From Chlorobiaceae bacterium (GTDB lineage: Bacteria; Bacteroidota; Chlorobiia; Chlorobiales; Chlorobiaceae), in contig JAAXWO010000013.1 in NCBI GenBank assembly GCA_013334965.1, forward strand, positions 1 through 64,000: a stretch of 64,000 bases of DNA. Direction: 5' to 3'. Positions within the stretch are counted from its first letter, which is position 1; each line of letters opens with the position of its first letter. The position numbers and the translations under genes are program-made. Positions 1 to 52,964 of this stretch are shown here, piece by piece. Below the pieces are notes generated by a model, which worked only from the letters and a program-made list of their open reading frames with translations, was not told the DNA's origin and made no database searches.

Positions 1-56
1 GATAATGGATAATGGATAATGGATAATGGATAATGGATAATGGATAATGGATAATG
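1..56 (+). repeat. Tandem heptamer array GATAATG x8
   Basis: Eight perfect head-to-tail copies of the heptamer GATAATG run from the left edge and probably continue outside the window. They stop 22 bp before a four-helix-bundle gene. On the far side of that gene the same heptamer recurs in the opposite orientation, so the gene sits between inverted arrays. The purity of this copy suggests recent expansion. Confidence 0.95.
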
Positions 57-78
57 GAAGAGGGGAGGGGAGGGGGAG

Positions 79-441
79 ATGGAGGGGAATAGGGTCAAGG
101 AGTGCTCATTTATGTTTGCGCTTCGGATTGTAAAGCTCAGCCAGTTTTTGCAGGAGGAGAAAAAGGAGTATGTGCTCAGCAAGCAGCTTCTAAAATCCGG
201 TACGTCAATAGGTGCCCTTGTTCGTGAAGCTGAGCACGCTGAGAGCAAGGCCGATTTCATTCACAAGATGGCGATTGCTCTCAAAGAAGCTAATGAAACG
301 GTGTATTGGATTGACCTGCTCCACGAATCTCAAATACTTGAAAAGAAAGCTTTTGATTCAATCAATCCTGATATCATAGAACTTCTGAAATTGCTGACCA
401 GCATCGTCAAATCTTCAAAAATGAATCGCCTAGACACATAG
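79..441 (+). CDS. Four-helix-bundle (S23/IVP-like) protein
   Basis: A 120-residue all-helical protein. It matches the four helix bundle family first noticed in 23S rRNA intervening sequences and related to the Avd accessory protein of retroelements: an FALRIV-like helix near residues 12-19, SKQLLKSGTSIGA near 35-47, EAEHAESKADF, and ALKEANETVYWIDLL near 70-85. The start at 79 follows a purine-rich GGAGGGGGAG stretch, and the N-terminal NRVKECSF segment fits the family, so I prefer it to the internal Met at 112. The family has no established catalytic role; members bind RNA or DNA as pentamers. The gene is boxed in by inverted GATAATK heptamer arrays, which suggests gene plus arrays arrived as a unit (inference). 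Confidence 0.85.
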   Translation: MEGNRVKECSFMFALRIVKLSQFLQEEKKEYVLSKQLLKSGTSIGALVREAEHAESKADFIHKMAIALKEANETVYWIDLLHESQILEKKAFDSINPDIIELLKLLTSIVKSSKMNRLDT

Positions 442-455
442 CTGAAATTTTGTAT

Positions 456-559
456 TCCATTATCAATTATCAATTATCAATTATCCATTATCAATTATCA
501 ATTATCCATTATCCATTATCCATTATCAATTATCCATTATCCATTATCAATTATCAATT
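456..559 (-). repeat. Inverted heptamer array (ATTATCA/ATTATCC)
   Basis: About 15 heptamers alternating between ATTATCA and ATTATCC, the reverse complement of the GATAATK unit at the left edge. The array starts just after the four-helix-bundle stop codon and ends three bases before the hypC start codon, so it replaces the leader where a ribosome binding site would be expected. Transcripts across the two arrays could form a long A/U-rich stem around the gene. Confidence 0.95.
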
Positions 560-562
560 GTT

Positions 563-1940: not shown

Positions 1941-2978
1941 ATGCAACTCAGCTGTCCCGCCCCCATCCTTCAGCATGAAACCGTCCAGATGGCCCACGGA
2001 GCCGGAGGGCGATTGTCGCAGGAGCTTACCGCAAGGATTTTCATGCCGCACCTGCAGAACGCCTTCCTCGACCAGCTCGACGACCAGGCGAGGTTCGATG
2101 CGGAACCTGGGCAGATAGCCTTTTCAACCGACACCTACGTCGTTTCGCCGATATTTTTCCCCGGCGGCAACATCGGCGAACTGGCCATCAACGGTACGGT
2201 CAACGACCTGGCCGTTGGCGGGGCGGTGCCGCGTTACCTGAGCGCAGGGTTCGTGCTCGAAGAGGGCTTGCCTCTTGCTGAGCTTGAAACAATCGTCAGA
2301 AGCATGGCTGAATCGGCTCGCAAGGCAGGAGTCATGATCGTGTGCGGCGACACCAAGGTGGTGCAGAAAGGGCAGTGCGACAAGATCTTCATCAACACCT
2401 CCGGGGTCGGCTTCATCCCCGACGGAATCAACGTTTCGTGCCGCAACCTGAAACCCGGTGACGCGGTCATTCTCTCCGGGACGATCGGGGATCACGGCAT
2501 GGCCGTCATGACCACCCGCGAGGGGCTCTCATTCCAGAGCCGCATCAAGAGCGATACCGCAGCGCTGAACGGCATGATCAGGGACGTGCTCGACGTCGTG
2601 CCGGGCGTGCACGCCATGCGCGATCCAACAAGGGGCGGCGTCGCCGCCACCCTCAACGAGCTGGCATCATCATCGTCGGTCGGCATCGAACTCGAAGAGA
2701 GCGCGATCCCCGTTCGGGAGGAGGTAAGGGGAGCCGCCGAACTGCTCGGCATCGACCCGCTCACCGTAGCCAACGAAGGGAAAATGCTGCTCATCGTGCC
2801 TGAAGCCGACGCTGAAGCCGTGCTTGCGGTCATGCGCGCAAACGAGCACGGCCGCGAAGCTGTTCGTATTGGCAAGGTAGTAGAGGAACACCCCGGCATG
2901 GTGGTCATGCGCACTCCCTTCGGCAGCCGCCGAATAGTCGAGATGCCGCTTGGGGAGCAGTTGCCGAGGATCTGCTGA
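1941..2978 (+). CDS. hypE: Carbamoyl dehydratase HypE
   Basis: A 345-residue PurM-like ATPase that dehydrates the carbamoyl group on its C-terminal cysteine to thiocyanate, the cyanide donor for HypD. The protein ends in PRIC, the hallmark C-terminal Cys, so the stop position is certain and the enzyme is complete. MAHGAGGR near residue 17 and GDTKVVQKG mark the ATP-binding region. It begins 3 bp after hypD and is therefore translationally linked. Sixteen bases past its stop begins an ATGGAC inverted-repeat element separating it from the convergent modE. Confidence 0.97.
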   Translation: MQLSCPAPILQHETVQMAHGAGGRLSQELTARIFMPHLQNAFLDQLDDQARFDAEPGQIAFSTDTYVVSPIFFPGGNIGELAINGTVNDLAVGGAVPRYLSAGFVLEEGLPLAELETIVRSMAESARKAGVMIVCGDTKVVQKGQCDKIFINTSGVGFIPDGINVSCRNLKPGDAVILSGTIGDHGMAVMTTREGLSFQSRIKSDTAALNGMIRDVLDVVPGVHAMRDPTRGGVAATLNELASSSSVGIELEESAIPVREEVRGAAELLGIDPLTVANEGKMLLIVPEADAEAVLAVMRANEHGREAVRIGKVVEEHPGMVVMRTPFGSRRIVEMPLGEQLPRIC

Positions 2979-2994: not shown

Positions 2995-3153
2995 GAATGT
3001 AAGAATGGACGGTATGGACGTAATGGACTTGATGGACTGAATGGACTTGATGGACTGAATGGACGAAGATTCAGGAGAATAGCTCTTTCTGCCCTGTCCA
3101 TAACGTCCATACCGTCCATGATTTCTTCGTCCATTCAGTCCATTCTTACATTC
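2995..3153. repeat. ATGGACNNN inverted-repeat element, copy 1
   Basis: An approximately 159 bp element between the convergent genes hypE and modE. It opens with GAATGTAAGAATGGAC, continues with seven ATGGACNNN nonamers (3005-3066), has a short core containing CGAAGATTCAGGA, and closes with the complementary units and GTCCATTCTTACATTC. The arms can pair almost end to end, giving a long stem in RNA read from either side, so it may act as a bidirectional 3' end. A second copy in the opposite orientation lies at 40983-41112 with the same ends and core. Confidence 0.9.
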
Positions 3154-3162
3154 CCTCCCCCC

Positions 3163-3972
3163 TCAGTTCACCCCGATAATCACGCTCGAAGCTTTGAACA
3201 GGGCGCAGGCGGATTCGCCCTCCCTGAGTTCGAGCTTTTCGCTGCTGGTGCGGGTGATGATGGCCGAGATGATGTTGCCGCCGCCGATCTCGATGTCGAT
3301 TTCGCTGCTGACGGGGCCGTCGATAACCCGCAGAATTTTTCCGCACATTATGTTGCGGGCGCTGAGGCCAGCGTCCTGCAGATCCTTACCCACGATGACT
3401 GAATTTGACTTTACAATGGCGTAGGCGCTCATCCCTTTTTTCAGGCCGAGGTTATCCACGGCGCCGTTGGTGATGATCGAAGCTATCTGCTGGCCACCGG
3501 TGAGGGTGAGCACTACCTCGGCGTTGACCGCCCCCTTTTTAACCTCTTCGATGGTTCCTGCAAAGACATTGCGGGCGCTGATCCTCATGGAGATCCTCCT
3601 GAGGAACTGGTAGAGGTTGCCGGTATCACCGATGCGCTCCTCGAGGTTTTCGAGGAACTTCCGATGCTCCTCCTGGACGACCCGGAACTGTTCGATCACC
3701 TGTTTCCCCTCACGGGTAAGCACGGTGCCCCCGCCGCCTTTTCCTCCGGTCACGCGATCGACCAGCGGTTTTTCTGAGAGGTTGTTCATCATGTTCACCA
3801 GGTGCCACGCGGTCTTGTAGCTGATGCCGACAGCCTTGGCTGCGCTGTTGATCGAGCCCAGTTCGTCGATCTTTTCGAGCAGGATGATCCGGTCGCCGCC
3901 GAGGAACCGGTTCTGCGATTTCTGGAACCAGATAGCTCCTTCAAGTCCGATGGGGTCTTTTGTCCTGTTCAC
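3163..3972 (-). CDS. modE: Molybdate-responsive regulator ModE
   Basis: About 269 residues. An N-terminal winged helix (LGSINSAAKAVGISYKTAWHLV, then GGKGGGGTVLTREG near residues 75-90) is followed by two Mop/TOBE molybdate-binding domains (SARNVFAGTIEEVKKG and SARNIMCGKILRVIDG). This is the ModE architecture: a dimer that senses molybdate and controls molybdate transport or molybdenum enzymes. The start is put at the GTG at 3972; the frame stays open to 4095 but the extra residues do not look like protein. No modABC transporter genes adjoin it. An apparent ModE box and a terminator-like hairpin lie upstream in its leader, suggesting self-control. It converges on hypE. Confidence 0.92.
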   Translation of the reverse strand: MNRTKDPIGLEGAIWFQKSQNRFLGGDRIILLEKIDELGSINSAAKAVGISYKTAWHLVNMMNNLSEKPLVDRVTGGKGGGGTVLTREGKQVIEQFRVVQEEHRKFLENLEERIGDTGNLYQFLRRISMRISARNVFAGTIEEVKKGAVNAEVVLTLTGGQQIASIITNGAVDNLGLKKGMSAYAIVKSNSVIVGKDLQDAGLSARNIMCGKILRVIDGPVSSEIDIEIGGGNIISAIITRTSSEKLELREGESACALFKASSVIIGVN

Positions 3973-4034
3973 GATGTGGCCCGGATAAGGTGAGGTTGCC
4001 GTCAACCTACAATATATGCCCCGGCACGATAAAA

Positions 4035-4059
4035 TCCCGACGGCGGAGAACCGTCGGGA
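4035..4059 (-). terminator. Terminator-like hairpin in the modE leader
   Basis: A perfect 9 bp stem, TCCCGACGG paired with CCGTCGGGA around a 7-base loop, followed on the - strand by ATTTTAT. It lies between the ModE box and the modE start, so it may attenuate modE or be a back-up terminator for the nif transcript. The U-run is short, so its strength is uncertain. Confidence 0.6.
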
Positions 4060-4118
4060 AGGTGTAAACAAAGAAAGAACAGGGTGCCAGAACAAAATAG
4101 GGAAGGAGAATGGGTAAT

Positions 4119-4513: not shown

Positions 4514-4585
4514 GACTACTATTGTTTCGGTTATTAGTTATCTGAAAATCACTTACAGATCCTTCTGATTCCTCGCTACAGTTTC

Positions 4586-4684
4586 ACTATCAATTATCCA
4601 CTATCAATTATCCACTATCAATTATCAATTATCCATTATCCATTATCCATTATCCACTATCAATTATCAATTATCAATTATCAA
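4586..4684 (-). repeat. Solo heptamer array between nifB and ferredoxin
   Basis: About 14 tandem heptamers on the - strand (GATAATT, GATAATG and GATAGTG variants), running right up to the nifB stop codon. It is the same family as the arrays flanking the four-helix-bundle gene at the left edge, but here no gene is enclosed. It sits in what should be the leader of the ferredoxin gene. Confidence 0.93.
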
Positions 4685-5959
4685 CTACCCACACCCATTC
4701 CCCGTCCCCGAGCACCCCGACTTGCAGGCATGGATCTGGCTGCTCTTGATCAGGTGCTTCAGGTTCTGGCCGGTGAACAGTCCATAAACAGCCTCTTCGA
4801 TCACCCCTTCGATCGACAGGACCTCGATGCCGTGCGCGGTCAGTACCGATACCGGTGAATCACCGGCGCTGTTGACCAGGAGGGCGCGGCAGTCGTAGAG
4901 GACTTCAGCGAGTGCCGCCCAGCGCTCCTTGCCTCCGCCGGGCGGTGGCGCCTGCCGGGAATCGACCAGCGTGCAGCTCTTGTTTTCCTTGTCCAGCGCG
5001 TACACCAGGAACCTGTCGGCTTCGCCGAGATGCTGGTTGATGAGCACGCCCTCTATGCTTCCTACCGCGATGAAGGGGCGGTGATCTTCAGGATTTTTCG
5101 GCAGCAGTGCCGCTTCGGCCATCTTTGCATTGATCTCATCGGTGTTGATCTCTCCGATGATGCCCACCGCGTCTGCGCGGCAGCGGGCGCAATGTTTCAT
5201 CTGGGGCAGCAGCTTGCCGGCCTCCTCCTGGATTTCCAGAACCATGACGGGGTCGGGCTCGGGAATGTTCTCGAACACGGTTTCGGTCGTGTTGTAGTAG
5301 GGCATGGCGTTCAGGATGTCGGCACCCATGGCGGCGACCTGCCGAGCGACTTCCACGACGTGCGTGTCGTTGACGCCAGGGATGATGATCGAGTTCACTT
5401 TCGCCGTCACGCCAAGCCTCTTGAGCTTCTGCAATGCGGCGAGCTGGTTTTCGAGCAGCAGCTGGGCTCCCTGAAGGTCGCGGTACATGCGTTTCTGGTA
5501 GCGGACCCATGCGTAGATCTCCGCACCGATCTCCGGATCGATGGCGTTGATCGTCAGCGTCACGTGGCTCACCTGAAGATCGGCCAGTTCGTCGATGTAG
5601 GGCAGCACGTCGAGTCCGTTGGTGGCAACGCAGAGCAGCATCTCGGGATACTTTTTCCTGACGAGGCGAAGCGTTTCCATGGTCTCATCCGGATTGGCGA
5701 ACGGGTCGCCCGGTCCGGCGATACCCACCACCGAAATGTTCGGCGAGAGCTTCAGCGCGTTGTCGAGGTAGTAGAGGGCCTGGCCGGGCGAAAGCACCTT
5801 GCTGGTCACGCCGGGACGGTTCTCGTTCATGCAGTCGAACTTGCGGTTGCAGTAGTTGCACTGGATGTTGCATTTCGGCGCGACCGGCAGGTGGATTCGT
5901 CCGAACTTGTGCCGGGACGAGTCGTTGAAACAGGGATGGTTCTGGATATTGATTGTCAT
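4685..5959 (-). CDS. nifB: FeMo-cofactor biosynthesis radical SAM protein NifB
   Basis: A 424-residue enzyme that fuses two [4Fe-4S] clusters and inserts the central carbide to make NifB-co, the precursor of the nitrogenase cofactor. The radical SAM motif is CNIQCNYC (Cys30, Cys34, Cys37), with extra cysteines at 10 and 43 and ARC..CRADAVG near 260. The last third (IAVGSIEGVLINQHLGEA onward) is a NifX/NafY-like domain that can hold NifB-co; the tail ends in a Cys- and Gly-rich stretch. It follows nifN after 12 bp on the same strand. Length and domain order are those of the NifB-NifX form. Confidence 0.97.
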   Translation of the reverse strand: MTINIQNHPCFNDSSRHKFGRIHLPVAPKCNIQCNYCNRKFDCMNENRPGVTSKVLSPGQALYYLDNALKLSPNISVVGIAGPGDPFANPDETMETLRLVRKKYPEMLLCVATNGLDVLPYIDELADLQVSHVTLTINAIDPEIGAEIYAWVRYQKRMYRDLQGAQLLLENQLAALQKLKRLGVTAKVNSIIIPGVNDTHVVEVARQVAAMGADILNAMPYYNTTETVFENIPEPDPVMVLEIQEEAGKLLPQMKHCARCRADAVGIIGEINTDEINAKMAEAALLPKNPEDHRPFIAVGSIEGVLINQHLGEADRFLVYALDKENKSCTLVDSRQAPPPGGGKERWAALAEVLYDCRALLVNSAGDSPVSVLTAHGIEVLSIEGVIEEAVYGLFTGQNLKHLIKSSQIHACKSGCSGTGNGCG

Positions 5960-36923: not shown

Positions 36924-39548
36924 ATGGCCACAGACGCCGAAGTTCGCAAGCAGGAGGCGACGCCCATGATGCGCCAGTATCTCGAGGTCAAGGAGCGCTA
37001 TCCCGATTATCTCCTGTTGTTTCGGGTCGGAGATTTCTACGAGACCTTTTTCGACGATGCCATTTCTGTCTCATCGGCCCTGAACATCGTTCTTACCAGG
37101 CGTTCAAGCGAAGTGCCGATGGCCGGATTCCCTCACCACGCCAGCGAGGGGTATATCGCCAAACTCGTCAGGAAAGGCTTCAAGGTGGCGGTCTGCGACC
37201 AGGTCGAGGACCCCGCCGCGGCCAAGGGGATCGTGCGCCGGGAAATCACCGACATCGTCACTCCGGGAATAACCTACAGCGACAAGATCCTCGACGACCG
37301 CCACAACAACTATCTCTGCGCCATAGCAATGCTCAGGCGCGGACGGGAGCAGGTCGCAGGGGTCGCTTACGTCGATGTGACCACCGGCGAATTCAGGATG
37401 ACCGAACTGCGCCAGGCGGAGCTCAAGGACTTCCTGCAGGCCCTTCATCCGGCGGAAATCCTCATCTCCTCCAGGGAAAGGGAACTCAGGGAGTCCCTGA
37501 AAAAATGCCTCTATGCCGAAGCGCTGTTCACTGAACTCGAGGAGTGGATGTTTACCGAAGAGCAGGCCACCAGGGTGTTGTCGGGCCATTTCAGGACACA
37601 TTCCCTTAAAGGGTTCGGCATTGACGGCGCGGAGGCGGGCAGGGTAGCTGCGGGGGTCGTCCTCCAGTACCTCGAAGAGGCCAGGCAGGGTAGCCTGAAG
37701 TATCTCGCGCGCATCAGCATGGTCGAGAGCGGCGACAGCATGACGCTCGACATCCAGACCCGCCGTAACCTCGAAATCATCTCGTCGATGCAGGACGGCA
37801 CCCTCAACGGCAGCCTGCTCGCGGTGATCGACAGGACGAACAACCCGATGGGGGCAAGGTTGCTGCGTCGCTGGCTGCTGCATCCCCTCATCAGGCTTGA
37901 ACCGATCACCCAACGGCACGACGCTGTCGAAGAGCTGCTCGAAAGCCCGCAGACGAGGGAGGAGGTTCGCCGGTTGCTCGGAGAAGTCATCGATCTCGAG
38001 CGGGCCCTGTCGCGCATTGCGACATTCAGGGCCATGCCGAGGGAGGTGCGGCTGCTGGGGTCATCGCTTGCGATCGTTCCGCACCTCAGGACGATTCTTG
38101 CAGATACCCGGTCGCCGAGGCTCCGCAAGCTTGCCGAGCGTCTCGAAGCGCTTCCTGAGCTTGCCGGATCGATCGAGCAGGCTCTCGATCCGGAGTCGAC
38201 AGGGGCCGTTCGCGACGGAGGTTACATCAGGGCAGGTTACCATCAGGAGCTTGACGAGCTGAGGGCGATCTCTTCCGGGGCGCGTGACCGACTGCTTGAG
38301 ATTCAGCAGGAGGAGCGCGGCAAGACGTCGATATCGACCCTGAAGGTCCAGTACAACAAGGTTTTCGGCTACTATATCGAGGTCAGCAGGGCCAACAGCG
38401 ACAAGGTTCCGGACTACTATGAAAAAAAGCAGACCCTGGTCAACGCCGAGCGTTACACCATTCCGGCCCTGAAGGAGTACGAAGAGAAGATCCTGACAGC
38501 TGAAGAGAAGAGCCTTCTGCTCGAACACCGTCTGTTCCAGGAGCTTTGCGCCATGGTGGCCGATAATGCCGCTTCGATTCAGGGCATCTCCTCTGCCATT
38601 GCGGAGCTGGACTGCCTCGCTTCGTTTGCGTGGTGTGCCGACGAGTACCGCTACTGCCGGCCGGTGATGAACGAAAGTACGGAACTGGCCATAACCGGCG
38701 GCCGTCACCCCGTGCTCGAACGCATTCTCGGGGCCGACGAACCCTTTGTGGCCAACGACTGCCGTATCGGCTTGCGCCAGCAGCTGCTCATCATCACGGG
38801 GCCGAACATGGCGGGTAAAAGCTCATTCCTCAGGCAGACAGGCCTCATCGTGCTGCTCGCACAGGTGGGCTGCTTCGTGCCTGCCGATGAGGCGGAAATC
38901 GGGCTTGTGGACAGGATTTTCACCAGGGTCGGGGCATCTGACAACATAACTTCGGGGGAGAGCACCTTCCTCGTGGAGATGAACGAAGCGGCCAGCATCC
39001 TGAACAACGCAACTTCCCGTAGCCTCCTGCTCCTCGACGAGATCGGTCGAGGCACCAGCACATTCGACGGGATGTCGATCGCCTGGTCGATGAGCGAGTA
39101 TATCCACGACAGATTGCAGTCCAGGACGCTCTTCGCCACCCACTACCATGAACTCGCCGAACTGGAAGCCCGCCTGGAAAGGGTCGTTAATTTCAACGCC
39201 ACCGTCGTCGAAACTGCCGATACGGTCATTTTCCTTCGCAAGATCGTGCGTGGGGCATCGGACAACAGTTACGGCATCGAGGTCGCCAAGATGGCAGGCA
39301 TGCCTTCGGAGGTGATCGTACGAGCCCGTGAGCTTCTTGCGGGAATGGAAAAACGCGAGATCGAAATACCCTCGCAACGTTCAGCATCTTCGCTTCTCCA
39401 GGCCCGGCAGATATCGCTGTTCGAGGAGGAGGAGAGCGTATTGCGCGATATGGTTTCAGGGATCGACATCAACAGCCTCACTCCGCTCGATGCGCTCATG
39501 GAGCTGAAGCGCCTGCAGGACATTGCGCTTGGAAGGGCATCACGCTAA
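36924..39548 (+). CDS. mutS: DNA mismatch repair protein MutS
   Basis: An 874-residue mismatch-recognition ATPase. The N-terminal domain carries the mismatch-wedge motif [15 protein letters not shown] (Phe-X-Glu) near residue 35. The clamp and lever regions follow, then the ABC ATPase: Walker [32 protein letters not shown], Walker [17 protein letters not shown] and the His switch ATHYHEL. The C-terminal tail ([18 protein letters not shown]) is the tetramer/MutL region. It is full length. The next gene starts four bases after its stop. Confidence 0.98.
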
Positions 39549-39552
39549 GCCC

Positions 39553-40995
39553 ATGCCAGAAGCTGTACAACCAAAATCGGTACTCCTCGTCTTCGTCCAG
39601 GCCTCCAGCGGTGTGGACGGCGCCGCATCGCTCGACGGCACAGGCAAGGGTGCGATTGCCCTCATGAAGGATCGCGTCATGAGCGGGCTCATCAAAAGGG
39701 CGCAGTTCGCCATTCCTCCGCTCTCCCTGATGATCCTGAGTTCGGTCAAGTTGCCTGGTATCACCCAGGAGATCTGCGATCTCAGGTTCGACCGCCTTCC
39801 GCTCGACAGGCATTGGGACCTGGTCGGTATCAGCGTTCAGACGGGAGCCGTCCGCCCCGCTTTCGAAATCGCATCCCTGTTCCGTTCGAGAGGAACTCCG
39901 GTAGTGCTCGGCGGCCCCTATGTGTCGATCTTTCCCGAGCGGTGCCGGGATCAGGCGGATGTGCTGGTCATCGGCGAGGCCGACGATCTCTGGAAAGAGG
40001 TGCTCGAAGACCTGAGGAAAGGAGTCCCGAAGCCGGAGTACCGGGGGAGCGGGTTCCCTGACCTTTCAGTCAGCAGGCCGGTCGACAAATCGGCCCTTGA
40101 TATCGGCAGGTACTTTACGACCAACGTCGTCCAGACGACCAGAGGATGTCCGTACAGTTGCGATTTCTGCAACGTCCACATCATGAACGGCCACAAGCTG
40201 AGGCACCGACCGGTTGACGAGGTGGTCAGGGAGGTTGAGGGTTTCCTTGAACAGGATCGCCGCATTTTCTTTTTCCTCGACGATACGGTGAACGCAGACG
40301 AAGCCTATGCCGCCGAGCTTTTTTCCCGGCTTGTGCCCCTGAAGATCAAGTGGGTCGGCCAGGCGACGACATTGCTGGGAGAAAACGCGCGGTTGCTCGA
40401 AATCTTTGCAAAGTCGGGATGCGGAGCTCTTCTGGTGGGGATCGAAAGCCTTGCCGACGAGAGCAACCGGGCTCACCACAAGTTCCACAATCCCTCTGTA
40501 AGGCAGTCACAATGCATCAAGGCGATCCGGGCGGCGGGTATCTGCGTTTACGGCAGCTTCATATTCGGCCTTGACGGCGATACGCTTGCCATGCCGGAGA
40601 TCATTGAAGCCTTTATCGAAGATACCGGTATCGACGTGCCGGGCATCAACCTTCTTCGCCCGATTCCCGGCACCGACGTTTTCAATCGGCTTGCCGCTGA
40701 AGGTCGCCTGCTGCACCCCAGCGACGATCATGACGCTTTCAGGTTTTCATGGGGGCAGGAGATGCTCTATCTCCCCAGACAGATCCCACTCGACGAATTC
40801 ATTCCGAGTTACACTGCGCTTACCTCAAGGGTGTTCACCCTCCGTCACGCCATCGAACGTGCCATGCGTGCCCCCACACTCCCTTCTGCAGTGCTGATGT
40901 TCAACATGCTTTATGTCCACATGTACGGTTTGTCAAGAAAGGATCTGCGGAAGCAGCTGGTGGAGCTGGGGAGGGGAGAGCAGAATGTAATGTAA
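39553..40995 (+). CDS. B12-binding radical SAM protein (BchE/BchQ/BchR-like)
   Basis: About 480 residues. The N-terminal half is a cobalamin-binding Rossmann domain without the DxHxxG motif (VGISVQTGAVRPAFEIASLF, VVLGGPYVSIFPE); the radical SAM domain follows with CPYSCDFC (Cys199, Cys203, Cys206). This architecture is that of BchE (ring E cyclase) and the C-8(2)/C-12(1) methyltransferases BchQ and BchR of bacteriochlorophyll c/d/e synthesis. Several such paralogs exist in green sulfur bacteria and this one cannot be assigned a step. It starts 4 bp after mutS. The last codons and stop lie inside an ATGGAC repeat element, so the tail (QNVM) is repeat-derived. Confidence 0.85.
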   Translation: MPEAVQPKSVLLVFVQASSGVDGAASLDGTGKGAIALMKDRVMSGLIKRAQFAIPPLSLMILSSVKLPGITQEICDLRFDRLPLDRHWDLVGISVQTGAVRPAFEIASLFRSRGTPVVLGGPYVSIFPERCRDQADVLVIGEADDLWKEVLEDLRKGVPKPEYRGSGFPDLSVSRPVDKSALDIGRYFTTNVVQTTRGCPYSCDFCNVHIMNGHKLRHRPVDEVVREVEGFLEQDRRIFFFLDDTVNADEAYAAELFSRLVPLKIKWVGQATTLLGENARLLEIFAKSGCGALLVGIESLADESNRAHHKFHNPSVRQSQCIKAIRAAGICVYGSFIFGLDGDTLAMPEIIEAFIEDTGIDVPGINLLRPIPGTDVFNRLAAEGRLLHPSDDHDAFRFSWGQEMLYLPRQIPLDEFIPSYTALTSRVFTLRHAIERAMRAPTLPSAVLMFNMLYVHMYGLSRKDLRKQLVELGRGEQNVM

Positions 40996-41112
40996 GAATG
41001 GACGGGATGGACTTGATGGACTTGATGGACAGGGGAGAGGGAAAGAAATATTCTTCTTCCTGAATCTTCGTCCATTCAGTCCATTACGTCCATCAAGTCC
41101 ATTCTTACATTC
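40983..41112. repeat. ATGGACNNN inverted-repeat element, copy 2
   Basis: An approximately 130 bp element between the convergent radical SAM and ABC transporter genes, in reverse orientation to copy 1. It shares the termini (GAATGTAAGAATGGAC and its complement) and a core with CCTGAATCTTCG, but has fewer nonamers. The radical SAM stop codon is inside its left end. The arms pair to form a long hairpin. Confidence 0.9.
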
Positions 41113-41141: not shown

Positions 41142-42896
41142 TCAGCTCAGGGCGCTGATCTCCTCTTCCAGCAACTGCCTTGTGTAGAGGTCGGCATAGT
41201 ACTGGCCGTTCAGGAGCAGCTCCTCGTGGGTGCCGCTTTCGGCGATGGTTCCCTCGTGCAGTACGATGATGCGGTCACAGTTCCTGACTGTTGAGATTCT
41301 GTGGCTGATCAGCACGATGGTGGTTTCGGGGAGTTTTTCGAGCAAACCGTCGAAAATACTGGCTTCCGTTGCCGTGTCTACGGCTGACAGGGCATCGTCG
41401 AGAACGAGGATCGAGGGATTCCAGCTGAGCGCCCTGGCGATACAGGCGCGCTGTTTCTGTCCTCCTGAAAGGTTGATCCCTTTTTCACCGAGCATCGTGT
41501 CGAAACCGTCTGGAAAATCGACTACGTCATCGTGCAGCATGGCGATTCTACTCGCTTCAATGACATCGATCCCATCCTGGCTGCTGCCGAAGTCGATGTT
41601 GTGACGGATGGTGTCCGAAAACAGGAAGTTCGACTGGGGAACAAAGCCGATGGTCCGCCTGACGACGGCAAGCGGCAGGCTTCTGACATCCCTGCCGTCG
41701 ATCATGACCCGGCCTCTGGCCGGATCGTAAAGCCGGGGAATCAGGTTGACCACTGACGATTTGCCGGCGCCGGTAGCTCCCACGATGGCGACCTTCGTGC
41801 CTGGTTCAACGGTGAACGAGATATCTTTCAGGACCGCCTTGTCGGGTTGTGACGGATAGTAGAACCAGACATGTTCAAAGGTCAGGGTTCCCTTCATCGC
41901 CTCGCTGGGGGCCTCATTCTTGCCGGTGTTCATCTCCGTGATATCCGGTTTCGTATCGAAGATTTCGCGCAAACGGGTCTGCGCCGCCGCCGCCTTCTGG
42001 ACGATGTTGGTCACCCATCCGATAGAGATCATCGGCCAGCTGAGCATGGAGACGTAGATGACGAACTGGGCGATGCCGCCTACGCTCATGGTGCCGTTCA
42101 TGACGTTCAGTCCGCCGACCCAGATCACCGGGATCAGCGAGAGAGCCGTCAGGGCGGTGAGAAGCGCCATGAACCAGGCCTGTATCTTTCCAAGCTGCAG
42201 GTTCCTGTCGTAATAATTTTTGTTCAGCTTTTCGAAACGAGAGGTTTCGTGCTCTTCACGGTTGTAGTTCCTCACCACACGGATGCCGGAAATGTTTTCC
42301 TGGACAAGGTTGGTGATGGCCGCATAGTTTTCCTGGATCTGCCTCGAACGTTTCTGTATCGACACCCCGGTCCTGTAAACCGAATAGCTGAGCAGCGGGG
42401 CGGGAAGGAGCGCGAAGAGGGTCAGCATGGGTGAGATCGAGACCATTGCCCCGATGGCAAAGAGCAACCTGAAGAGCGTATTGATAGAATACATGATGCC
42501 CGGTCCCAGAAAATCACGTACGGCGTTCAGGTCGTTGGTGCCTCTCGAAATCAGCTCTCCTGAGCCTGTGGTGTCGTAAAAGGAGGTCGAAAGCGTCTGG
42601 AGATGGGCGTAATAGTCGTTTTTCAGGTCGAACTCAATATGACGGGAAGTGACGATGATCAGCTGGCGAACAAGATAGAGCATGATTCCGCTGACAGCCG
42701 CCAGCAGGATGTAAAGTCCGACCTTGACGAGCACATCCTTCATTTCGAAAGGCTTGCCCATAAGGTCTATGGCATCTCCGAGGAAGCGGGGTGCAGCTAC
42801 GGCAAAGAAATTGGTCGCTATGACGCATACGACTCCAGCGGCAAGGGATTTCCGGTAACGTACGAGGTATGGCCGTAGGGCAAGCAGATTTTTCAT
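41142..42896 (-). CDS. ABC exporter, permease-ATPase fusion (MsbA/LmrA type)
   Basis: A 584-residue half-transporter. An N-terminal six-helix permease (about 1-310) is fused to a C-terminal ATPase: Walker A GATGAGKSS, Q-loop GFVPQSNFLF, signature LSGGQKQR, Walker B ILVLDDALSAVD and the switch His in LISHRIST. It works as a dimer; lipid or drug export is possible and the substrate cannot be read. It is divergent from a merR-type regulator 67 bp away, which may control it. Confidence 0.94.
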   Translation of the reverse strand: MKNLLALRPYLVRYRKSLAAGVVCVIATNFFAVAAPRFLGDAIDLMGKPFEMKDVLVKVGLYILLAAVSGIMLYLVRQLIIVTSRHIEFDLKNDYYAHLQTLSTSFYDTTGSGELISRGTNDLNAVRDFLGPGIMYSINTLFRLLFAIGAMVSISPMLTLFALLPAPLLSYSVYRTGVSIQKRSRQIQENYAAITNLVQENISGIRVVRNYNREEHETSRFEKLNKNYYDRNLQLGKIQAWFMALLTALTALSLIPVIWVGGLNVMNGTMSVGGIAQFVIYVSMLSWPMISIGWVTNIVQKAAAAQTRLREIFDTKPDITEMNTGKNEAPSEAMKGTLTFEHVWFYYPSQPDKAVLKDISFTVEPGTKVAIVGATGAGKSSVVNLIPRLYDPARGRVMIDGRDVRSLPLAVVRRTIGFVPQSNFLFSDTIRHNIDFGSSQDGIDVIEASRIAMLHDDVVDFPDGFDTMLGEKGINLSGGQKQRACIARALSWNPSILVLDDALSAVDTATEASIFDGLLEKLPETTIVLISHRISTVRNCDRIIVLHEGTIAESGTHEELLLNGQYYADLYTRQLLEEEISALS

Positions 42897-44622: not shown

Positions 44623-44687
44623 AATTATTCTCCTTTTTTCTGGTGGCGTTTAAAATGGTATTTTCAGGAAAAACACACGGTTGCTTC

Positions 44688-44701
44688 CTGTTAAATAACA
44701 G
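44688..44701. promoter_or_regulatory. Palindrome upstream of fmoA
   Basis: CTGTTAAATAACAG is a perfect inverted repeat with 6 bp arms and 2 bp spacer, 66 bp upstream of the fmoA start in a 240 bp AT-rich intergenic region shared with lnt. It could be an operator or promoter element; no known regulator is matched. Confidence 0.35.
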
Positions 44702-44862
44702 CTTGAAAGAAAATTAAAGAATAAATATTAATAAATAAAGGAAAATATGTCTGTTGCCGGCTTCTATCGCTATTCGTTGTTTTTTGACTGCATGGCCGGC
44801 CTTGAATATCATGGACTACGGGCCAGTAACCTTTTCCGGTCATTGCGACGATCCTTTGCATC

Positions 44863-52586: not shown

Positions 52587-52687
52587 GACGTGACGCGTGA
52601 TGCGTGACGCGTGACGGAAAGCGGGGATGGTATTTACTGGTTTTATGAGGTTTTGGCCCGGGTGATCCGAAAAGTTGAAACATTAAG

Positions 52688-52727: not shown

Positions 52728-52866
52728 GTGGGGATGTAATCCGTGACCCGTGACCCGTGACCCGTGACCCGTGACCCGTGACCCGTGACTCGTGACTCGT
52801 GACTCGTGACGCGTGACGCGTGACGCGTAACCCGTGACCCGTGACGTGTCACGCCGTCACGAAAAT

Positions 52867-52904
52867 CATGGAAGTAATGGACGGGATGGACGTAATGGAC
52901 CATG
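52867..52904. repeat. Fragment of the ATGGACNNN element
   Basis: Three ATGGACNNN-type units within CATGGA...CCATG ends, lying inside the GTGACSC repeat region. It has the nonamer but not the GAATGTAAG termini of the two full copies, so it looks like a decayed or minimal copy. Confidence 0.7.
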
Positions 52905-52964
52905 AAGGAGCGAATACCCGACGCACCTTACTTTACGCGTCACGCGTCACGCGTCACGGATTTT

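Follow-up and report, generated by a model that had tools for sequence, protein, structure and literature searches.

The window analysed here is a stretch of 64,000 nucleotides from a Chlorobiaceae genome, which we refer to as G000. It contains two full copies and a fragment of an inverted-repeat element made of ATGGAC units, together with a short four-helix-bundle gene and several arrays of 7-bp units. The features are listed by position in the window:

1-58, plus strand: array of 8 GATAATG units, upstream of the gene at 79-441
79-441, plus strand: short four-helix-bundle (IVP/S23) gene (PF05635, 90 bits; PDB 2RLD, E 1e-35; TIGR02436)
456-561, minus strand: inverted array of 14 ATTATC[AC] units, downstream of the gene at 79-441
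2995-3153, no strand assigned: full element, copy 1, with mirrored ends GAATGTAAGA and TCTTACATTC
3005-3064: left arm of copy 1, 7 ATGGAC units with a 9-bp period, followed by the loop
3096-3119 and 3129-3143: right arm of copy 1, 5 GTCCAT units
4585-4687, minus strand: gene-less array of the 7-bp unit GATARTN
40983-41112, no strand assigned: full element, copy 2, with the inner core opposite in orientation to that of copy 1
40998-41030 and 41070-41102: left and right arms of copy 2, 4 units each
52589-52616, plus strand: array of the 7-bp unit CGTGACN
52741-52845, plus strand: array of 15 copies of the 7-bp unit CGTGACN
52867-52904, plus strand: one-armed fragment, an imperfect unit (ATGGAA) followed by three perfect ATGGAC units
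52935-52958, minus strand: inverted CGTGACN array, which closes a palindrome around the ATGGAC fragment

The two full copies and the fragment were present as described in a first-pass annotation made from the sequence alone, and ATGGACNNNATGGAC matched the window 18 times with at most one mismatch, as compared to 0.36 matches expected from shuffled sequences (shuffle maximum 2). The full copies follow the design (ATGGACNNN)n - loop - (NNNGTCCAT)n, that is, (ATGGAC NNN)n - loop - (NNN GTCCAT)n, and frequently have GAATGTAAGA on the outside. The sequence GAATGTAAGAATGGAC was located at positions 2995-3010 on the plus strand and at 3138-3153 and 41097-41112 on the minus strand. The outer left end of copy 2 was GAATGTAATGTAAGAATGGAC, with a single mismatch at position 40988, and CGAAGATTCAGGA was common to both full copies in opposite orientations. 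Gene calls confirmed that all three copies lie between convergent genes, with copy 1 flanked by ORFs at 1941-2978 (plus) and 3163-4095 (minus) and copy 2 by ORFs at 39523-40995 (plus) and 41142-42896 (minus). The fragment was nested inside the inverted CGTGACN arrays.

In the arrays of G000, the hexamer was perfect at 117 positions and contained one mismatch at 4, which makes it about 97% invariant when only positions between perfect units are considered, and the values were similar in three relatives. The NNN triplets were variable, with 22 kinds among 135, and triplets starting with C were rare both here (4 of 135) and in other phyla (29 of 635). The facing triplets of the two arms were not complementary in the genus, where a mean of 1.0 to 1.9 of 3 positions paired without significant excess over shuffles, and a modest pairing excess was seen in other phyla (1.52 versus 1.23). 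Because the hexamer is nearly invariant and the triplets are variable and not complementary, the kept feature is a 6-bp word at 9-bp spacing in pairs of inverted arrays. A perfect base-paired stem as the kept feature was rejected on the basis of the facing triplets in the genus. The elements also differ from CRISPR arrays, which have repeats of more than 20 bp and unique spacers of about 30 bp, as compared to the 6-bp repeat and 3-bp spacer seen here.

A genome-wide search recovered the dispersed, palindromic, non-coding family that had been proposed. We identified 138 exact matches to ATGGACNNNATGGAC in G000 (2.48 Mb, 20 contigs), as compared to 1 match for a reversed control pattern, and these represented about 25 loci, the smallest being remnants of two units and the largest a run of 34 near-identical units from C12:401,635 on. 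The elements form arrays that are 100 to 400 bp long. A composite segment, ATGGAC-GAAGAAATC-ATGGAC, was found at four separate loci of G000 and in three relatives, a recurrence that suggests copying between loci. Gene-less DNA transposons (MITEs) are recognised by terminal inverted repeats together with a target-site duplication. Inverted ends (GAATGTAAGA) were seen in the ATGGAC elements. The orthologous slots contained other palindromes or were too diverged for a target duplication to be read, and neither a clean empty site with clear boundaries nor a target duplication was found among the sites compared.

The copies were not spread evenly over intergenic contexts, and the suggested preference for convergent gene ends was upheld. 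Gene orientations were obtained with a simple codon-usage gene caller written for the purpose. In a set of 67 copies from four genomes, which includes orthologous sites of related genomes that are not fully independent, 49 were located between convergent genes, 18 between tandem genes and none between divergent genes, placing them at gene 3' ends. The 44 intergenic gaps in the window included 26 tandem, 9 convergent and 9 divergent gaps. The enrichment in convergent gaps (49 of 67 versus 9 of 44) was significant (Fisher p of about 7e-8), as was the depletion in divergent gaps (0 of 67; p 1e-4), and the test is conservative since the background gaps include sites with elements. Arrays of the related unit GTGGAC in the genome G020 were convergent at 13 sites, tandem at 14 and divergent at none. 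One exception to the 3'-end rule was a palindrome in L045 (579-732), which was located 378 bp upstream of a 16S rRNA gene. It was also noted that this and two other contig starts (L053, 144-236; L054, 143-208) had a common leading sequence and an ATGGAC palindrome.

To describe the distribution among relatives, three-unit arrays of ATGGAC and GTGGAC were counted in 101 genomes, many of which are drafts. Multiple ATGGAC matches were found in G007 (86), G000 (84), G008 (62) and G018 (48), and single matches in G011 and one member of a sister genus. Matches to GTGGAC were most numerous in G020 (56), G001 (53), G014 (52) and G009 (36), fewer in seven others and limited to 0 or 1 in the four ATGGAC genomes. 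The two arrays were thus mutually exclusive in the genus, in agreement with the gene-linked unit described below.

The slot that contains copy 1 in G000 was occupied by ATGGAC arrays in G008, by GTGGAC arrays beside the orthologous gene end in G020, G014, G001 and G011, by AAGGAC/AGGGAC in G009 and G010, and by a 7-bp AGTTGAT-type palindrome in G018. In G004, G007 and G019, it contained the near-perfect palindrome GGGGTCAGGYCTTGCA (L372, L370 and L369). The motif GGGGTCAGR from this palindrome flanked a Y1 transposase gene on both sides in L112, and the GGGGTCAGGYCTTGCA palindromes may therefore be a true REP/RAYT family. At five further sites with elements in G000, GTGGAC arrays were found at the same sites in G020. 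Unit number and triplets differed between species at the same site. Slots are retained or occupied anew as the repeat family or its hexamer changes. The loci compared were chosen for having arrays, and the size of the overlap is therefore not an unbiased rate.

A scan of about 85,000 species genomes for the two-armed pattern yielded at least 114 stretches. The matches listed included Sumerlaeota/BRC1, Chlamydiae, Lentisphaerae, Planctomycetes, Hydrogenedentes, Cloacimonadota, Desulfobacterota, Kapabacteria, Gemmatimonadota, Thiosymbion and others. At several of the loci in other phyla, the array was read in frame inside one protein, always between two constant blocks. This protein corresponds to NCBIfam TIGR04258 ("four helix bundle suffix domain-containing protein") and also showed a partial match to TIGR02436 and, in Pfam, a sub-threshold match to 23S_rRNA_IVP. 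The TIGR04258 scores were 64.7 to 65.6 bits for three array-bearing genes and 65.3 and 66.5 bits for our organism's own genes, with a curated cut-off of 40. In G000, the TIGR04258 gene was located on the minus strand of C12 at about 437,480-438,280, with one array between its two blocks and another just upstream, and the gene was nested among ATGGAC arrays in G008 and G018 too. The suffix protein was found in no phage record and in one plasmid, from Prevotella nigrescens, where a weak 9-bp array was located downstream.

The presence of the gene was associated with that of the arrays. Among the matches listed, 37 of 46 genomes from other phyla that were selected only for the palindrome had a TIGR04258 match and 9 had none, as compared to 0 of 14 control genomes. 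In an even sample of the phylum of the window, TIGR04258 was found in 49 of 394 genomes, and outside the window's own family in 12 of about 330. An ATGGAC tandem was located in or within 500 bp of the TIGR04258 gene in 22 of the 36 genomes examined from other phyla. Within the genus, the gene was present in 14 of 15 genomes with at least 5 ATGGAC or GTGGAC matches, as compared to 2 of 6 without (p 0.01). In G007, which has 86 ATGGAC array matches, a TIGR04258 gene was not found, and seven genus members contained some GTGGAC arrays without a clear GTGGAC-linked gene, which needs loss of the gene or assembly gaps. For the two units that were tested, ATGGAC and GTGGAC, the hexamer linked to the gene is the one dispersed through the same genome.

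The period of the inverted arrays linked to genes was 9 in 49 genes and 10 in 8, and no further period was seen at a score of at least 3. Their units followed the protein clades, with xTGGAC, ACGGAC (with period 10), AAGGAC/AGGGAC, TAGGNC and TGGGAC, GATC-like, TCSGAC and ATTGAC units in different clades. A phylogeny was inferred from the two structured blocks only, to which the translation of the array itself cannot contribute. On this tree, which is short and has many weak forks, and with 48 of 113 genes left out since automatic detection gave them no unit label, the labels required 14 changes, as compared to a mean of 26.8 and a minimum of 23 after shuffling. When the xTGGAC units were merged, 8 changes were required (the least possible being 7), as compared to a mean of 18.2 and a minimum of 14. 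Eight genomes contained 2 to 4 TIGR04258 genes each, and the units of these genes differed within a genome, which means that the agreement between clade and unit is not accounted for by host ancestry. Going by these sequences, the protein clade predicts the hexamer and the period of the array, even among genes of one genome.

In an AlphaFold2 model of the relative L175 (pLDDT 73.9, with a loop at residues 137-157 below 50), the first block formed helices 1 to 3 and the suffix formed a long helix. Residues 12-188 aligned to the structure 2GSC with a Z score of 14.0 over 111 residues, to 2RLD with 12.6 and to Avd (4DWL), the accessory protein of diversity-generating retroelements (DGRs), with 10.6; such scores can arise by chance between helical bundles, but the two best-ranked structures are both IVPs and there is a sequence match to TIGR02436. 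The model and the alignments indicate that the suffix supplies helix 4 and that the array is placed in the loop between helices 3 and 4. The TIGR04258 protein is thereby predicted to be a four-helix bundle of the IVP/S23/Avd type with a long insertion between helices 3 and 4. The Z scores, obtained with VIA-align, were clearer than the results of Foldseek, which ranked IVP structures first, albeit weakly and with nothing under E 0.001. A search of PDB sequences with a profile of the suffix protein gave chance-level matches only. It was also noted that the TIGR04258 proteins of the GGYSEQLA clade (L304, L309, L310 and L323), which have GATC-like units, had a motif resembling a zinc ribbon at the C-terminus, CPKCG...CxGYPxC.

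IVP genes without the suffix were instead bracketed by 7-bp arrays. The gene at 79-441 in the window is one of these and belongs to the wider system, being linked to a 7-bp unit and not to ATGGAC. The CGTGACN unit was also found beside another short IVP gene of the same genome (C7:119281), the frame of which holds a TGA. In the genus, flanks with at least 4 recurrences had a period of 7 in all 7 cases. On plasmids from cyanobacteria and a few other phyla, 13 of 16 short IVP genes had flanks with a period of 7, and no other period was seen. The plasmid heptamers included ATTCGTA, ATTCGCA and AATCCCC. In three plasmids, from Nostoc, Anabaena and Pseudanabaena (L479, L483 and L488), the four-helix genes were located between CRISPR adaptation genes, with cas2 and cas1 as neighbours in two and csx2 and cas1 in the third.

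The first-pass annotation had suggested that the element acts as a bidirectional terminator, and the predicted RNA folding agreed with this in part. Single strands of the ATGGAC elements folded well (-55 to -73 kcal/mol, z -5 to -11), with values of -56 kcal/mol (z -5.4) for copy 1 and -72.7 kcal/mol (z -11) for copy 2. There was no T-run after either arm of the two copies, a terminator scan of copy 1 returned no site, and an Rfam search of the window gave no known RNA family at the element. The only Rfam match in the window was an Lnt RNA (RF01711) at 44665-44724 on the plus strand (69 bits), which is unrelated to the element. With a strong hairpin but no T-run, the terminator role is not supported. 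If the element were a Rho-independent terminator, with spread or selection placing it between convergent genes, this would agree with the location of 49 of 67 copies, with a hairpin that is stable on both strands, and with the finding that in most cases every species had some palindrome in the copy-1 slot or beside the gene end. Yet such a function is not needed to explain the placement. Unrelated palindromes in one slot would be expected equally if the slot required a terminator or if it tolerated or attracted palindromes. Given also the 18 tandem sites, the copy upstream of a 16S rRNA gene, and that it leaves the protein link and the hexamer code without explanation, we consider this reading very unlikely.

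In our proposal, to which we assign a probability of roughly 0.6, the ATGGAC element belongs to a two-part repeat system as the form that lacks the gene, and a gene-bearing form encodes the TIGR04258 protein and carries the same inverted arrays. The two would make up a pair similar to that of REP and RAYT. The view of the window copies as non-autonomous fits with the existence of a gene-bearing version. The evidence consists of the co-occurrence and physical linkage of gene and arrays, the location of the copies at gene 3' ends, and a hexamer that is kept while the triplets drift. Recognition of the hexamer by the protein, and spread or upkeep of the copies through it, are what we infer from these patterns. 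In the gene-bearing form, inverted (ATGGACNNN)n arrays would flank the TIGR04258 gene and also be placed within it, in the part that encodes the loop joining helices 3 and 4. Its product, probably an oligomer like its relatives, which we take to be pentameric (2GSC), would recognise hexamers repeated every 9 bp, in DNA or RNA that is either duplex or folded back on itself, and promote the copying or upkeep of arrays elsewhere, as RAYT does for REPs. We know of no catalytic site in the IVP fold, and the chemistry would thus come from the host, for example from replication fold-back or a reverse transcriptase. Gene 3' ends would be places that tolerate or attract new copies.

In the main rival explanation, nothing is mobile and the four-helix protein binds the arrays as fixed sites, which expand locally by slippage and are maintained by selection for a host role in 3'-end processing, termination, RNA stability or chromosome organisation. 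This would account for the conserved hexamer amid drifting triplets, the several sites common to different species, the strict 3'-end placement and the strong folding. It is at odds with the patchy presence in the genus, the composite segment common to unlinked loci, the differing palindrome families in one slot, and the gene copies that have inverted arrays on either side, as a mobile unit would, including plasmid copies located between cas2 and cas1, and we consider it improbable, albeit the strongest of the alternatives. Slippage by itself, generating repeats with neither function nor partner, could have produced the run of 34 near-identical units, but would not account for a hexamer kept amid varying triplets, for the inverted pairs, for the recurrence across many phyla or for the agreement with protein clade, and we give it hardly any weight. 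No more credible is movement of REP/BIME-like elements by a RAYT (Y1 transposase), despite the dispersed palindromes at gene ends and the Y1 genes in G000, G007 and G008. The unit design and ends are not REP-like, no ATGGAC tandem was found within 1.5 kb of the Y1 genes fetched, and Y1 genes of the same quality are present in G009 and G012, where ATGGAC arrays are absent; a Y1 transposase as the partner was ruled out by these flanks and this distribution.

The proposed two-part system resembles REP/BIME/REPIN sequences and RAYT (TnpA_REP), in which palindromes are dispersed at gene ends, one gene is flanked by inverted copies and protein and repeat co-vary (PMC2817692). The gene is likewise bracketed here by inverted copies of a repeat that is also dispersed in gene-less form, as observed for the C12 gene of G000, for G008 and G018, and for the GTGGAC genes of G001, G020, G014 and G009, all with genome-wide arrays. 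It differs in that the partner is a four-helix protein of the IVP/Avd fold rather than a Y1 HUH transposase (PF01797), that the unit is a 6-bp word with a period of 9 bp (or 7 or 10 bp) and free spacers rather than a 20-40 nt palindrome with a GTAG or similar tag, which was not seen here, and that arrays are found inside the gene too. Another relative is the intervening sequence (IVS) of 23S rRNA, a selfish element of unknown function that encodes S23p/IVP between stem-forming terminal inverted repeats (PMC4990558). The protein superfamily is the same, and the gene at 79-441 (PF05635) is located between inverted 7-bp arrays, but the likeness does not extend to the gene-less ATGGAC copies. The window copies lie between protein genes rather than in a 23S rRNA helix, and short-unit arrays and dispersed gene-less copies replace the one long stem.

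Heptamer repeats have long been known from cyanobacteria. The 7-bp units of the short IVP genes look like these repeats, and a link between them is a proposal. As intergenic short tandem arrays with a 7-bp period and a patchy presence across distant lineages, the STRR/TAACTGA repeats are similar in period and setting, the two aspects compared, whereas the ATGGAC class has a 9-bp period. In the study of the TAACTGA repeats, no mechanism for their transfer was evident (PMC4679880), and no gene tied to such repeats was found in the open-access papers searched. Homology between Avd and PF05635 has been noted (PMC10053308), and the TIGR04258 model has the same fold as Avd.

In the open-access literature, we found no paper that links IVP/S23/TIGR04258 proteins to repeats, although earlier work could exist. 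We regard the system as new on the basis of this search and because the partner protein is not among the known transposases, although in outline it works like REP/RAYT. A broader generalisation, to which we give even odds, is that IVP/S23 four-helix proteins are trans-acting partners of short-unit inverted arrays across bacteria, with 7-bp units for the short proteins and 9- or 10-bp units for those with the suffix. Guided by a sequence code that resides in the protein, such arrays would be mobile or self-maintaining with no recognisable transposase involved, and the cyanobacterial heptamers would be explained as well. The findings suggest a testable role for a common protein family of unknown function (IVP/S23, TIGR02436, TIGR04258) and a genetic partner for widespread short tandem arrays. 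Since the fold is that of Avd, they may also bear on how this fold handles nucleic acid, and the match between hexamer and protein clade would represent a recognition code of natural origin, legible in genome sequences.
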